Source of the DNA: an uncultured Myxococcales bacterium
Lineage (GTDB): Bacteria > Myxococcota_A > Polyangia > Polyangiales > Houyiibacteriaceae
Direction of reading: 5' to 3'
NCBI GenBank assembly: GCA_937893795.1
Contig: CALCTH010000244.1
Location: 1 to 40,840 of the forward strand
Length of the DNA stretch: 40,840 nucleotides
Below the pieces are notes generated by a model. The model had not been told where the DNA came from and ran no database searches. It saw nothing but the letters and a program-made list of their open reading frames with translations. Positions 31,213 to 37,942 of this stretch are shown here, one piece after another (positions within the stretch are counted from its first letter, which is position 1; the number at the start of each line of letters is the position of its first letter). A program made the position numbers and the translations under genes.

Positions 31213-31254
31213 CGCGACGCCCTGCGCGCGGAGCTGGCTCGGGAGAACGCCGCG

Positions 31255-32052
31255 ATGAGCACGCCGGACCCTCAGCGCCCCCGCATCACCTACGAAGCGC
31301 GCGGGCACCTGCGCCTCATCGGCCTCGATCGGGCCGAGAAGCGGAACGCCTTCGACCTCCGCATGCTCCGGGAGCTCGCCGAGGCGTACACGCGCTTCGA
31401 GGAGGACGACGCGGCCCGCTGCGCTGTGCTCTTCGCCCACGGCGACCACTTCACCGGCGGCCTCGATCTCGCCGAGGTCGGGCCCGCCGTGGCCCGCGGC
31501 GAGACGCTCTTCCCACCCGGGAGCGTCGATCCGCTGGGGCTCGGCGAGCGCGTGCGTACGAAACCGACCGTCATGGCCATCCAGGGCATCACGCTCACCA
31601 TCGGCATCGAGCTCGCGCTGGCCCAGGACGTGCGGGTGGCCTCGGACGACGTGAGCTTCGGCCAGATCGAGGTCAATCGCGGCAGCTTCCCCTTCGGCGG
31701 GGCCACGCTCCGGCTTCCGCGGATCGCCGGCTGGGGCGATGCCATGCGCTGGCTGCTCACGGGCGATCGCTTCGGCGCGGAGGAGGCGCACCGGCTGGGG
31801 CTGGTCCAGGAGGTGGTGCCCGCCGGCGCCGCGCTCGGGCGCGCCGTCGGCCTCGCCGAGACCATCGCGCGCCGGGCGCCCCTCGGCATCCAGGCCACGC
31901 TCGCGTCGGCGCGCGCCGCGGTGGAGCGGGGCCACGCCGCGGGCCACGCCGACATGATGCGCCGGCTCCCCGGCGTGCTCGCCTCGGCCGACGCCGAGGA
32001 GGGCGTCCGGAGCTTCCTCGAACGCCGCGAAGCTACCTTCGAAGGCCGTTAG
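31255..32052 (+). CDS. Crotonase / enoyl-CoA hydratase-family protein
   Basis: ATG 31255 gives 265 residues, the family's usual size; the frame is open upstream through the previous gene but is shadow there. Visible features are the first strands RGHLRLIGLDRAEKRNAF, the oxyanion-hole block HFTGGLDLAEV, the second active-site segment IQGITLTIGIELALAQDVRVAS, and FGQIEVNRGSFPFGGATLRLPR. The catalytic Glu pair of true hydratases cannot be assigned with certainty, so isomerase or hydrolase activity is also possible. It ends in a four-base TTAG overlap with the convergent lipoprotein gene. Confidence 0.9.
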   Translation: MSTPDPQRPRITYEARGHLRLIGLDRAEKRNAFDLRMLRELAEAYTRFEEDDAARCAVLFAHGDHFTGGLDLAEVGPAVARGETLFPPGSVDPLGLGERVRTKPTVMAIQGITLTIGIELALAQDVRVASDDVSFGQIEVNRGSFPFGGATLRLPRIAGWGDAMRWLLTGDRFGAEEAHRLGLVQEVVPAGAALGRAVGLAETIARRAPLGIQATLASARAAVERGHAAGHADMMRRLPGVLASADAEEGVRSFLERREATFEGR

Positions 32053-33055: not shown

Positions 33056-34033
33056 TCAGGCGACCGCCGGGTCGGGCGTCACGACCCGGCGAAGCACCGC
33101 GCCGTAGCCCGGAGCGACGTGCGCGCCTGCGAGCGCCCCCCGTTCGCGCAAAAGCCGATGGAAGGCCGGCAGCCGGAAGAAGGGCACGCTCATCAGCGCA
33201 TGGTGCTCGAGGTGGTAGTTCACCCCGTGCGGCGCCACGGTGAGCCGCGCGAGCCACCCGGCCTCGGTCGTCCGCGTCGAGGGAAAGGCCGCGGGCCCCT
33301 CCCCGGTGCAGCTGTGCTCGGCAATGGCCCGAACGCGCAGGAAGAGTGAGTAGGTCGTGAGCAGCGCCGCCAGCCACACCGCGTAGAGCCAGGGCGCACC
33401 GGCGACCCAGCAGAGGCCGAAGAGCACGGACTGCGACACGACGAAGGGGGCCATGCGTCGCGCGACCCGGCGCCACGTGCCCGCGGGCCGGTCGGCGGGA
33501 CCGAGGCGCCGCGCCCCGCCCGACGCCGTGTAGCTCAGCCGCTCCGTGTCCATCAGGAAGATGGCCACGAGGCGCTTGAGCCCGGCCACGCCCGTGAGAT
33601 CACGCGCCACCTTGCGCAGCAGGCTCGCCCGCGTGGTGGGGAAAGGCGTCACGAGGCAGAGGTCCGGATCCTTGGCGGTGCCCGTGAAGGCATGGTGCGC
33701 CAGGTGGTGCTTTCGGTAGCGACGGAGATCCGCCCACACGGGCCCCGCGCAGAGCCACTCCCCCACAACGTCGTTGAGCAGGCGTGTTCGGAAGAGCGTC
33801 CGATGCGCGGCCTCGTGCATCAGGATGGAGAAGCCGAGCTGGCGGCCGCCCAGGACCACGAGCGCCACGGCCACCGTCACGACGTTCGGCCAGGCCCCGA
33901 CGAGCGCGAGCGCGGCGCCCACGAACGCCCAATCGCCGGCCACCGCGAGCGCACCGCGCAGGTCGCTCGGCGCCATGAGCGCCGCCCGCTCTTCCGGACC
34001 GAGCACGCCGAGGAGCTCTTCGTCGGTCGTCAT
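33056..34033 (-). CDS. Membrane fatty acid desaturase
   Basis: The 325-residue protein shows the three histidine boxes of acyl-lipid/acyl-CoA desaturases in order: HEAAH (about residue 73), HHLAHH (about 109) and HLEHH (about 279, NYHLEHHALMSVPF), which bind a di-iron centre. Hydrophobic segments flank them at about 30-65, 195-235. DPDLCLVTPFP and EHSCTGEG are typical of the fatty-acid desaturase / beta-carotene hydroxylase superfamily, where lipids are more likely than carotenoids. It would add a double bond to membrane acyl chains using electrons from a ferredoxin-type partner that is not in the window. Its start is 13 bases after the PaaX-family stop, so the two form an operon. Confidence 0.92.
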   Translation of the reverse strand: MTTDEELLGVLGPEERAALMAPSDLRGALAVAGDWAFVGAALALVGAWPNVVTVAVALVVLGGRQLGFSILMHEAAHRTLFRTRLLNDVVGEWLCAGPVWADLRRYRKHHLAHHAFTGTAKDPDLCLVTPFPTTRASLLRKVARDLTGVAGLKRLVAIFLMDTERLSYTASGGARRLGPADRPAGTWRRVARRMAPFVVSQSVLFGLCWVAGAPWLYAVWLAALLTTYSLFLRVRAIAEHSCTGEGPAAFPSTRTTEAGWLARLTVAPHGVNYHLEHHALMSVPFFRLPAFHRLLRERGALAGAHVAPGYGAVLRRVVTPDPAVA

Positions 34034-34046
34034 CGCTGCGTCGCCC

Positions 34047-34829
34047 TCATGGTCGCAGCGCCTGCAGGGGCCGACCGAGGGGCGTCGCGCCCGCGAGGCC
34101 GAGCCGCGTGGCCCAGAGCGCGCGCGCGCGCCGGTCGTAGCGGCTCATGGCCGACTGAAGTCGCTGCCGAGGCTCCGCGGACGCGAGCGCGGGGGGAAGG
34201 CGCGGGTCGAGGTGGAGGCTCCGCAGCGCGGCCCCGCCCAGCCGGAAGGCCGTCGCGAGCGCCGCATCGTCCGCTGGAGTGGCCGTCCGAAGCGCCGCCA
34301 GCCCGGTCTCGAGGGCCTCGGCGAGCGCGGTCTGCTTCGCCCGTCGCGCGCGCACGCTCCACAGGGCCTCGGCGTCGGGCGCGGGCTCGAGGGCGCTGGC
34401 GAGGAAGACCGCGCGACCGGCGCCGAGCTCTCCGCGCAGCGCGTCCACACCGCCGCGCAGGTTCGCCGGCCGCATGGAGAGCCCACGGAGCACCGGCCGA
34501 AAGCCCAGCCAGCGGAGCGCCTCGGGGAGCTCACCCAGCTCGTGCACGGCCAGCCAGCTCGTGCCGTCCCATGGAGAGAGCAGCGCGTCGTCGGTGGCCG
34601 TCCACGGCGTGGGCGGGCGCGGCGGCGCCGCCGGACCGAGCACGTAGGCCCCACGCGACGGGCTCGCGATGGCGTCGCGGGCGCGAAGGCGGCTCAGCGC
34701 GACGCGCAGCGCGTTCTCCTTGATACCCAGGATGACCCCCGCTTCGACGATGGCTCGGGCCGCGACCGGGACCGGCGAGGCCGCCGCCAGAAGGTCGAGG
34801 ACGAGCTGCCGGGGTCGCGTCAGCGGCAT
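34047..34829 (-). CDS. PaaX-family transcriptional regulator
   Basis: The 260-residue protein starts with the PaaX N-terminal winged helix: TRPRQLVLDLLAAAS, a helix with GIKENALRVALSRLRARDAI and the wing SPSRGAYVLG. A central WDGTSWLAVHELGELPEALRWLGFRPV segment and an all-helical C-terminal domain follow, as in PaaX. Known members sense phenylacetyl-CoA or other acyl-CoA thioesters and repress degradation genes. No phenylacetate genes are present here; instead it sits directly upstream of a desaturase gene, so an acyl-CoA signal for membrane lipid control is an attractive inference. Upstream are repeated AT-rich sequences suitable for self-regulation. Confidence 0.88.
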   Translation of the reverse strand: MPLTRPRQLVLDLLAAASPVPVAARAIVEAGVILGIKENALRVALSRLRARDAIASPSRGAYVLGPAAPPRPPTPWTATDDALLSPWDGTSWLAVHELGELPEALRWLGFRPVLRGLSMRPANLRGGVDALRGELGAGRAVFLASALEPAPDAEALWSVRARRAKQTALAEALETGLAALRTATPADDAALATAFRLGGAALRSLHLDPRLPPALASAEPRQRLQSAMSRYDRRARALWATRLGLAGATPLGRPLQALRP

Positions 34830-34832
34830 GCG

Positions 34833-34895
34833 GACATATATTACACCGATCGCGTCTCATTACAACGATCGACATATATTCGATTCACGTAATGA
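34833..34895. promoter_or_regulatory. Repeated AT-rich operator/promoter region between PaaX-type gene and caspase lipoprotein
   Basis: Two direct repeats of ATTACAmCGATCG occur at 34840-34852 and 34859-34871, 19 bases apart. The decamer GACATATATT occurs at 34833-34842 and 34871-34880, and TCATTAC (34858-34864) is inverted as GTAATGA (34889-34895). On the plus strand TATATT (34875-34880) could be a -10 for the caspase gene, and on the minus strand TGTAATAT one for the regulator gene. Such duplicated blocks in a divergent spacer are typical of cooperative operators. Confidence 0.6.
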
Positions 34896-34966
34896 TGGCG
34901 GCATGGGGAACGGCGAGCGACCGCATCGGGTACAAAAGCAGCGGCTGGCGTGGCCCGGAGGACCGC

Positions 34967-37942
34967 ATGGCGAGTGGACGATGGCGTGCGTGGATGCTGT
35001 GGCTCGGGCTCCTCGGTGCCTGCGAGTGCGGCGAAGGCAAGGGCGCCCGGCAGCTCCCGCCGACGCCGACCGGGGACGCCGCGCTCCTCGACCATAGCGG
35101 TGCGCTGGTCGGCCTCGAAGGCGCCCCGGGGCGCGCGAGCTTCGACGTCCCCGTCGCCGCCGGCGACCACATCGTGGTCGACCTTCGGGCCCAGGGCTTC
35201 GACCCGCGCCTCGAGGTGACGCCGCCGAGTGGCGGGACGCTTCGCAACGACGACTTCCAGGGCGATCGCTTGCGCTCGCGGTTGAGCCTGCTCGTGGCGG
35301 AGGCGGGCGTGATGAAGGTGCGCGTGGCGAGCCACCGTCCCGGCGAGGGCGGGAGCTACCACGTGCGCGTGAGCCGCGAGTCGCCGGCCGACGCCGCTGC
35401 GCCGCTCCTCTCGCTCGGGACGAGCTACGAGGGCGAGCTCGACGCCAGCGACGGTCGCGGGCCCGAAGGGCGCCTTCAGGACGTGTGGCTCGTGCCCGGC
35501 GGGGACACCGGACCCCTCGAGCTCCGCATCGAAGCCCGCGGCGACGCCGTGCCGCTGGCGCTGCTCGTGGACACGCAGGGCCGGGCGCTCTCCGCCGCGG
35601 GGAGCGGCGTGTACCGGCTGGTGGAGCCGGGCTTCCATCGCCTCCAGCTGCTCTCGCCGGGCCCGGAGGCCGAGGCCGGCTACCGGCTCTCGCTGCAGCG
35701 CGCGACGGCGGGCGCGACGCCGGTGCTGAGCCGAGCGCACCACCAGCTGCCCCCGGAGGCGGCCACGGTGACGCTCGCGGTGGGAGAGGCGCGAAGCGCG
35801 GCTCTCGGCGACGGCGAAGGCACCTTGCCCACGGGCGAGCCCGCCGACCTCTACGCGCTCGAAGGCCGGGAGGGCCAGACCCTGCGCCTCGAGCTGCGCT
35901 CCGACGCCTTCGACCCCTATCTCCTGGTCATCGCGCCGAGCGGCCGGCACTTCGAGAACGACGACAGCGGCGGCACGATGCATGCGGCCCTCGAGCTCGA
36001 GCTTCCCGAGGACGGGACCTACCGCGTCGTCGCCACGGCCTACCGGGCCGGCATGCGCGGGGCCTACGAGCTCAAGCTGAGCGAGGGCGCGCGTCCCTCG
36101 ATCGCGCCGGCGGCGCTGGCGGCCGCCGCGGGGCCGGGTGGAGACGCGCTCGTACGCACCGGACAGCTCGCGGCCGGCGACGCCACGCTCTCCAGCGGTG
36201 AGCTCGCCGACCGCTTCACCTTCGCGTGGGAGCCCGGGCAGCGCTGGGATCTTCGCCTGACCAGCCCGGCCTTCGACCCCTACCTCATCGTGCGCTCACC
36301 GAGCGGCGAACAGCGAGACAACGACGACGTCTCCGAGTCCGACCGGAGCGCGGGGCTGCTCTTCGAGACCAGCGAGGCCGGGGCCCACGAGGTGCTCGTC
36401 ACGAGCTACTCGCCCGGCGAGACGGGCGCCTACGAGCTCACGCTCACGGAACAGGCCGGCGGCGACACGCCCACGCCGCCGCCCTCGGTGGCCGCTGCGA
36501 CCGGTGGCGGTGACACGCTCCACGGCGAGCTCGCGCAGGGAGACGCCACGTTACGGAGCGGGGAGCTCGCGGACACGCACGAGCTCACGCTCGCGGCGGG
36601 GGAGCATGTGCATCTCGAGGTGCGGAGCGCGGCCTTCGACACCTACGTCATCGTGAAGCCGCCCTCGGGCGAGCAGCAGGAGAATGACGACGCGCCCGGT
36701 GGTGGCACCAACGCGGGGCTCGAGCTCGTGGCGCAGAGCGCGGGCACCTACCGCGTGCTCGTCACGAGCTACCGACCGGGCGAAACGGGTCCCTACGAGC
36801 TCGTGGTGCGCCGCGGCGGCGCCGCCCCCGCGCCGAGCGCGAATGCCGACGCGCGCTCCGTGGCGGCGGAGGGCGATACGCAGAGCGGCGCCCTCGCCCG
36901 GGGCGACGCGACGCTCTCGACGGGGGAGCTCGCGGACCGCTACACGCGCAGCTTCACGGCGGGCACGCCGGTGCGCATTCGGCTTCGCTCCAGCGCCTTC
37001 GACCCCTACCTGATCGTGCGCACGCCGAGCGGCCGGCAGATCGACAATGACGATGAGAACGCCACCACGCGCGACTCGCTCGTGGAGCTCCCCTCCGCGG
37101 AGACGGGTGCCTACCAGATCACGGTCACGAGCTATCAGGCCGGCGAGACCGGCGCCTATGCGCTGGCCTTCGAGGCCGGCACGGCGATACCCCGCGCGGA
37201 CGCCCACGGCGCCGGCGGTGCGGGCCGCGTCTTCGGCCTCTTCGCGGGCATCACCGACTACCCGCCGGGCGTGGGGGACCTTCCCGAGTGCGCCAACGAC
37301 GCCATCAAGCTCGCCGAAGCGCTTCGCAACGAAGGGCTCCTCGACGCGAGCCGGCAGGTGCTCCTGACGGACGCGCAGGCGACCACGACCAACGTTCGGA
37401 GCGCCATGCGACGCTTCGCCGGCGAGGTGGGCCCGGACGACGTCTTTCTCTTCTTCTATTCGGGCCACGGCGGGCAGCGCCCCGGGAGCCGGGACGGGCG
37501 GGAGATCGACGCGACGGACGAGTACCTGGTGCTCCACGACGGCCCGCTCCTCGACGATGAGCTCGGCCAGCTCTTCGACGGCGTCGGCGCGCAGGTCGCC
37601 GTGGCGGCGCTCGACGCCTGCTACAGCGGCGGCTTCGCGAAGGACCTCATCACGCAGCCCGGGCGCGTCGGGCTCTTCAGCTCCGAGGAGGACGTGCTCA
37701 GCGCCGTGGCGGGCCAGTTCCAGGCCGGCGGCTATCTCAGCCACTTCCTCCGCACCGCGGTCACGGGAGAAGCGGACCGGGCGCCGGCCGATCGGGTGCT
37801 CACCGTCGGCGAGCTGACGCACTTTCTCTACACGCAGTTCGGCCGTCACGCCGCGGACGTCGAGCTCCAGGGCGCCTACCAGCACCTCGTCGTCGATCGC
37901 GGCGCGGTGAGCGTGGACCAGGTGCTCTGGGCGTACCGATAG
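34967..37942 (+). CDS. Lipoprotein with six PPC-like modules and a C-terminal caspase-like (peptidase C14) domain
   Basis: ATG 34967 is chosen over 34892 because it has GGAGG seven bases upstream and starts a lipoprotein signal (MASGRWRAWMLWLGLLGAC, lipobox LGAC). The product has 991 residues. Six modules of about 100-120 residues follow, near 45, 150, 270, 394, 517 and 637. The last four repeat GDATL-S-GELADR, AFDPYLIV, PSG-x-x-x-x-NDD and a closing V-TSY-PGETG-YEL, which is the bacterial pre-peptidase C-terminal fold; the second module is degenerate. The C-terminal domain (752-990) has the caspase dyad, His834 in FFYSGHGG and Cys885 in ALDACYSGG. Orthocaspases cut after Arg or Lys. The anchored, multi-PPC form should act in the envelope or at the surface. 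Confidence 0.92.
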   Translation: MASGRWRAWMLWLGLLGACECGEGKGARQLPPTPTGDAALLDHSGALVGLEGAPGRASFDVPVAAGDHIVVDLRAQGFDPRLEVTPPSGGTLRNDDFQGDRLRSRLSLLVAEAGVMKVRVASHRPGEGGSYHVRVSRESPADAAAPLLSLGTSYEGELDASDGRGPEGRLQDVWLVPGGDTGPLELRIEARGDAVPLALLVDTQGRALSAAGSGVYRLVEPGFHRLQLLSPGPEAEAGYRLSLQRATAGATPVLSRAHHQLPPEAATVTLAVGEARSAALGDGEGTLPTGEPADLYALEGREGQTLRLELRSDAFDPYLLVIAPSGRHFENDDSGGTMHAALELELPEDGTYRVVATAYRAGMRGAYELKLSEGARPSIAPAALAAAAGPGGDALVRTGQLAAGDATLSSGELADRFTFAWEPGQRWDLRLTSPAFDPYLIVRSPSGEQRDNDDVSESDRSAGLLFETSEAGAHEVLVTSYSPGETGAYELTLTEQAGGDTPTPPPSVAAATGGGDTLHGELAQGDATLRSGELADTHELTLAAGEHVHLEVRSAAFDTYVIVKPPSGEQQENDDAPGGGTNAGLELVAQSAGTYRVLVTSYRPGETGPYELVVRRGGAAPAPSANADARSVAAEGDTQSGALARGDATLSTGELADRYTRSFTAGTPVRIRLRSSAFDPYLIVRTPSGRQIDNDDENATTRDSLVELPSAETGAYQITVTSYQAGETGAYALAFEAGTAIPRADAHGAGGAGRVFGLFAGITDYPPGVGDLPECANDAIKLAEALRNEGLLDASRQVLLTDAQATTTNVRSAMRRFAGEVGPDDVFLFFYSGHGGQRPGSRDGREIDATDEYLVLHDGPLLDDELGQLFDGVGAQVAVAALDACYSGGFAKDLITQPGRVGLFSSEEDVLSAVAGQFQAGGYLSHFLRTAVTGEADRAPADRVLTVGELTHFLYTQFGRHAADVELQGAYQHLVVDRGAVSVDQVLWAYR

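Follow-up and report, generated by a model that had tools for sequence, protein, structure and literature searches.

Acyl-CoA control of desaturase or fatty-acid genes is known from regulators of the DesT and FadR type, which belong to the TetR and GntR families. Nearly all that is known of PaaX, to our knowledge, concerns aromatic catabolism. In Escherichia coli and Pseudomonas, PaaX binds and responds to phenylacetyl-CoA, and the E. coli PaaX operator is TGATTC-N27-GAATCA (PMC9493321). The window, i.e., the whole stretch of 40,840 nucleotides from an uncultured Myxococcales bacterium that was analysed here, contains a gene for a PaaX-like regulator followed by a desaturase gene. The best explanation of this locus, to which a probability of roughly 0.68 is given, is that both genes are part of a conserved module consisting of an autoregulated PaaX-superfamily repressor and a desaturase, in which the repressor would act at a long-gap operator and would be released by a CoA thioester.

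The regulator gene (34047..34829, minus strand) encodes a PaaX-like transcriptional regulator of 260 amino acids, and 13 bp separate its stop codon from the start codon of the desaturase gene (33056..34033, minus strand). Both open reading frames and their spacing agree with the original prediction, and only the start of the divergent gene falls one base past the end of the interval given there. This gene (34967..37942, plus strand) encodes a caspase-domain lipoprotein with PPC-type domains and lies outside the conserved module. Its most likely start is 34967, which is followed by a signal peptide whose lipobox is LGAC. A second copy of the caspase-PPC lipoprotein, 49% identical, is present in the genome at G000:C270:6695-9634, and orthologues (about 60%) are present in several relatives. 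Other genes around the regulator are a GDSL lipase and an enoyl-CoA hydratase/isomerase (31252..32052, plus strand; PF00378, E 4e-41), which lies approximately 1 kb past the desaturase.

The regulator itself matches the N-terminal winged-helix domain of PaaX (PF07848) with an E-value of 0.0066 and 17.1 bits, under the gathering score of 24.8, and no sequence-level matches to PaaX_M and PaaX_C were found in the window protein. Among the 17 members of the regulator alignment, PF07848 is matched by all 17 (best 2e-9), the Cas2-like central domain PaaX_M by 16 and the C-terminal domain PaaX_C by 14. In addition, the profile of the regulator family gives matches to E. coli PaaX (PDB 8a39, E 9.6e-14) and Mycobacterium tuberculosis Rv0674 (3kfw, 3e-22), and the AlphaFold (AF2) model of the regulator (pLDDT 89) has the PaaX fold, with only the PaaX-family structures 3kfw, 8a39 and 3l09 below an E-value of 1e-3. 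Judged by these profiles and the model, the regulator is a member of the PaaX superfamily, and the family assignment of the original prediction is borne out by the relatives' domains, the profile matches and the model fold. An orthologue of the phenylacetate regulator PaaX was considered and rejected, because there are no adjoining paa genes, the half-sites differ and the gap in the window is 25. Also, genome-wide no complete paa cluster was found, with one marginal PaaA/PaaC match. The predicted role outside aromatic catabolism is supported.

The downstream protein of 325 amino acids matches PF00487 with an E-value of 1.3e-36. In an alignment of 34 sequences the histidine boxes HX3H, HX2HH and HX2HH are invariant (H73/H77, H110/H113/H114 and H274/H277/H278, plus H240), and the protein is modelled with a helical membrane-type fold (pLDDT 93). 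From sequence and model, it is a FADS-type desaturase with all of the di-iron histidines, i.e., a putative membrane fatty-acid desaturase-type enzyme. When the model was compared with the PDB, two chains of chloroplast motor complexes were nearest, followed by AlkB (E 0.01), which is the nearest named enzyme fold; SCD1 was not significant. There was no sequence match in the PDB, and no close characterised relative was found. The best NCBIfam match, which is far under the cut-off, is the guanitoxin arginine hydroxylase GntB, and this counts against the best explanation, in which the substrate of the putative desaturase would be a lipid.

Pairing of the regulator with the desaturase extends well past the window. 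When 318 genomes of the class were searched with a profile, 45 contained the regulator. Of the 44 class loci that were read together with their neighbourhood, 23 have the desaturase next to the regulator (22 directly downstream on the same strand and one divergent). Conversely, 43 of the best 80 desaturase loci in named genomes have the regulator as a neighbour, 41 of them immediately upstream and the other 2 on the opposite strand. The pair is found in Myxococcota, Binatota and Pseudomonadota (Pseudomonas insulae, Mangrovitalea, Sinimarinibacterium, Alcanivorax, Acinetobacter and Aquabacterium), and in MAGs labelled Pedobacter and Spirochaeta. Two findings count against the best explanation: 37 of the 80 related desaturases lack a neighbouring regulator, and the paired loci have a patchy distribution on the desaturase tree, where approximately 22 changes are needed, so that repeated loss or regain of the pairing is probable. 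In about 15 other class loci (genus g2 and G009; L005-L013, L016 and L141-L145), a lipase-type alpha/beta hydrolase is located downstream and pdxJ is divergent. At one locus (L137, genome G130), the matches to the divergent desaturase fall in two overlapping frames, which points to a frameshift or an assembly error. Another desaturase, on a contig of a MAG labelled Klebsiella pneumoniae (L197), groups with those of Binatota and Myxococcota, and this bin is probably mislabelled.

The promoters of these regulators share a conserved operator, in support of the original prediction on this point. The exact dyad ATTAC-N27-GTAAT is found in 44 of 82 regulator promoters, and each of the other gaps between 8 and 45 in 0 to 2 of them. 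When one mismatch is allowed, gap 27 is found in 56 promoters and other gaps in at most 5; the 26 of 82 promoters that lack the N27 dyad even at one mismatch count against the best explanation. After clustering of the regulators at 60% identity, the exact N27 dyad is present in 24 of 51 clusters and the one-mismatch form in 30, with a mean of 1.3 for other gaps. Of the 23 desaturase-class promoters, 12 have the exact dyad, compared with 0.015 expected from shuffles (gaps 24-30). For the set of 82 promoters, a reversed-arm control at gap 29 was left out, since it recovers these sites again with a one-base shift and is not independent. In most promoters the GTAAT arm ends 7-11 nt ahead of the start codon, and about half of the sites have a -35 element resembling TTGAC approximately 5 nt past the distal arm, followed by 17 bp and a TAATAT-like -10 element that overlaps the proximal arm. 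The -35 and -10 elements each fit the consensus in about half of the promoters. Such a geometry points to transcripts that are nearly leaderless and to a repressor lying over the promoter. In Sinimarinibacterium (the cultured S. flocculans has the pair and a single site) and Aquabacterium there is one N27 site per genome, at the regulator. The sister group in genus g2, of which the regulator is 34-37% identical to that of the window, has the N27 operator and the same promoter layout as the desaturase-linked loci, and no such dyad was found in G009 of the lipase-linked group. In the g2 sister group, the N27 dyad often precedes a further GTAATATTAC palindrome.

In the window, both pairs of repeats that had been predicted are present in the spacer. 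The 13-bp repeat occurs on the plus strand as ATTACACCGATCG (34840-34852) and ATTACAACGATCG (34859-34871), with a start-to-start distance of 19, and the two copies of GACATATATT (34833-34842, within the -10/start region of the regulator, and 34871-34880, within the dyad spacer) start 38 nt apart. In the whole genome of 6.42 Mb, the 13-mer ATTACAMCGATCG with at most one mismatch is confined to the two reported sites and is therefore not a chance element of the genome. A third arm, GTAAT at 34889-34893, had been missed and is the inverted partner of the second 13-bp copy. The resulting long-gap dyad ATTAC-N25-GTAAT (34859..34893) is the window version of the family operator and is unique genome-wide when gaps of 25-29 are allowed. 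On the regulator strand, the spacer reads ATTAC-N25-GTAAT-N14-GTAAT-10 nt-ATG, and the 13-bp direct repeat consists of the duplicated GTAAT arm plus CGATCG. Copy 2 is thus one arm of the dyad and copy 1 the extra, duplicated arm. Half-sites of a dyad with a long gap are a better reading of them than two direct repeats that form a self-contained operator, and this replaces the original view. What is conserved among relatives is ATTAC-N27-GTAAT and not the form seen here, with a gap of 25 and an extra arm, which counts against the best explanation. Under the best explanation, the window dyad would be a derived version of the operator. It is possible that the window regulator uses a changed operator geometry, because the gap is unusual and the identity of this regulator to the others is only 23-40%.

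The proposed regulator promoter (34838..34865, minus strand) was read from the sequence and consists of TTGTAA (34865-34860), 16 bp and TAATAT (34843-34838), a layout that is shared by relatives; it was not among the matches of a consensus promoter scan. In regulator-strand order, the first repeat copy overlaps the -35 element and the second, with its GTAAT, the -10 element. The latter ends 8 nt before the start codon, and the regulator transcript is therefore probably leaderless. Genome-wide site scans found no regulon beyond the locus; a single one-mismatch N27 match, on contig C623, looks like chance and was dismissed.

The operator is also found apart from the regulator gene. In five loci the dyad lies directly before a desaturase, and in four of these the regulator gene is located elsewhere: on the other strand 5 kb away in two Cellvibrionaceae-type loci (L215 and L219), on the other strand and downstream in a third (L240), and elsewhere in the genome in Limnobacter (L232). 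In the fifth (L208), the dyad sits between the regulator and desaturase genes. The operator is therefore associated with the desaturase and not just with the regulator gene. In the other 34 of 37 desaturases without an adjacent regulator, the exact dyad is absent from the 300 bp upstream.

In the proposed mechanism, the PaaX-superfamily repressor would control its own promoter, and hence the co-transcribed desaturase, via ATTAC-N27-GTAAT. The dyad brackets the -35 element, overlaps the -10 element and lies near the transcription start. With two DNA-binding arms approximately three helical turns apart, the repressor would keep RNA polymerase from the promoter, in the way that E. coli PaaX acts on the promoter of its own gene. 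Release would come from a CoA thioester, for which a fatty-acyl-CoA is the most likely candidate. The proposed ligand is based on analogy with phenylacetyl-CoA, the ligand of PaaX, and on the neighbouring genes, and the acyl-CoA link that had been suggested for this locus is plausible in this light. Where an enoyl-CoA hydratase gene is divergent, a single dyad between both start codons would control both genes. More broadly, it is an evenly balanced question whether a widespread PaaX branch serves as the dedicated acyl-CoA switch of membrane desaturases (and enoyl-CoA hydratase), with a conserved 37-bp operator, ATTAC-N27-GTAAT, and near-leaderless, sometimes bidirectional promoters. If so, the 27-bp gap would be a fixed mechanical feature throughout the superfamily, with diverging half-sites and ligands.

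Enoyl-CoA hydratase accounts for 12 of 53 upstream or divergent regulator neighbours, and every other function for at most 3; one neighbour was taken per paired locus by an ORF heuristic, except that for L170 the following gene outwards was chosen manually. The orthologue of the window enoyl-CoA hydratase in G253 (E 2e-97) lies on the same strand, upstream of the regulator and the desaturase. At two loci (L122 and L123, in G283 and G284), the dyad is 8 nt from both start codons of the divergent enoyl-CoA hydratase and regulator genes, apparently forming a compact bidirectional leaderless promoter. Such relatives, with the dyad plainly between two start codons, lend some weight to the idea that the divergent caspase lipoprotein gene in this genome is a further target of repression by the regulator, which would be compatible with the autoregulated repressor-desaturase module as an addition to it. 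The dyad is unique in the genome, and the sole plus-strand promoter-like match towards the caspase gene, TCGACA-N16-AATGAT (34869..34896; 9 of 12 consensus matches, 0.1 expected), overlaps it. Against this, the caspase adjoins the regulator only in the window (1 of the 53 neighbours), its homologues in G005, G008 and G035 are on another contig or approximately 2.5 Mb from the regulator, and none of the seven caspase-homologue promoters inspected has dyad arms. Repression of the caspase gene in this genome is therefore rather unlikely. For the same reasons the caspase was rejected as a conserved regulon member, the predicted switch shared by desaturase and caspase is not supported, and the caspase is probably next to the regulator by chance.

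An unlikely alternative is that the ligand is an aromatic acyl-CoA, e.g., phenylacetyl-CoA, and that the substrate of the desaturase-family enzyme is aromatic or derived from an amino acid instead of being a lipid. The response of E. coli and Pseudomonas PaaX to phenylacetyl-CoA (PMC9493321) is in its favour, as are the hydroxylases within the FADS superfamily and the GntB match, but the neighbours (enoyl-CoA hydratase, acyl-CoA dehydrogenase and, in the sister group, a lipase-type hydrolase) and the single marginal PaaA/PaaC match in the genome argue against it. That the regulator is an activator of the desaturase is quite improbable: the distal arm does lie just upstream of the -35 element, a place where activators can bind, but the proximal arm overlaps the -10 element and adjoins the start, both elements are near consensus in about half of the promoters, which fits repression, and PaaX is a repressor. 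Accident, finally, could be argued from the patchy pairing among desaturases, but it is exceedingly improbable as an explanation of dozens of loci in several phyla with a fixed 27-bp gap. The original prediction had named, as signs of an accident, regulators beside other genes in relatives together with unconserved repeats; the conservation in 23 of 44 regulator loci and 43 of 80 desaturase loci indicates that the pair is not accidental. The preferred reading remains the autoregulated repressor-desaturase module.

If this reading is true, many bacteria would have, in a cross-phylum branch of PaaX tied to desaturases, a means of controlling lipid unsaturation that has not yet been named. A fixed 27-bp gap common to branches with different half-sites would tell how the family grips DNA, and the operator is specific enough for direct target prediction, several GC-rich genomes having a single site each. 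In the open-access literature no paper linking PaaX relatives to desaturases or fatty acid was found; subscription papers were outside this search, and the novelty is therefore provisional.

Compared with the known systems, DesT and FadR-type regulators would be similar in their working but differ in protein family, and their operators are short and compact. The closest solved structure to the regulator, by sequence profile and Foldseek rank, is the PaaX-like Rv0674 of M. tuberculosis (3kfw), for which we know of no ligand or operator. The lipase-linked PaaX-like group (genus g2 and G009) is set apart by its downstream hydrolase and divergent pdxJ, unlike the desaturase of the window. E. coli PaaX, the repressor of phenylacetate catabolism (8a39), is alike in fold, domain order and autoregulation geometry over the promoter, and its operator gap of 27 bp is the same as in most relatives, whereas that of the window regulator is 25 bp. 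The two differ in their half-sites (ATTAC/GTAAT in the window family and TGATTC/GAATCA in E. coli) and in their linked genes, which are the desaturase and enoyl-CoA hydratase in the window family and the paa genes in E. coli.
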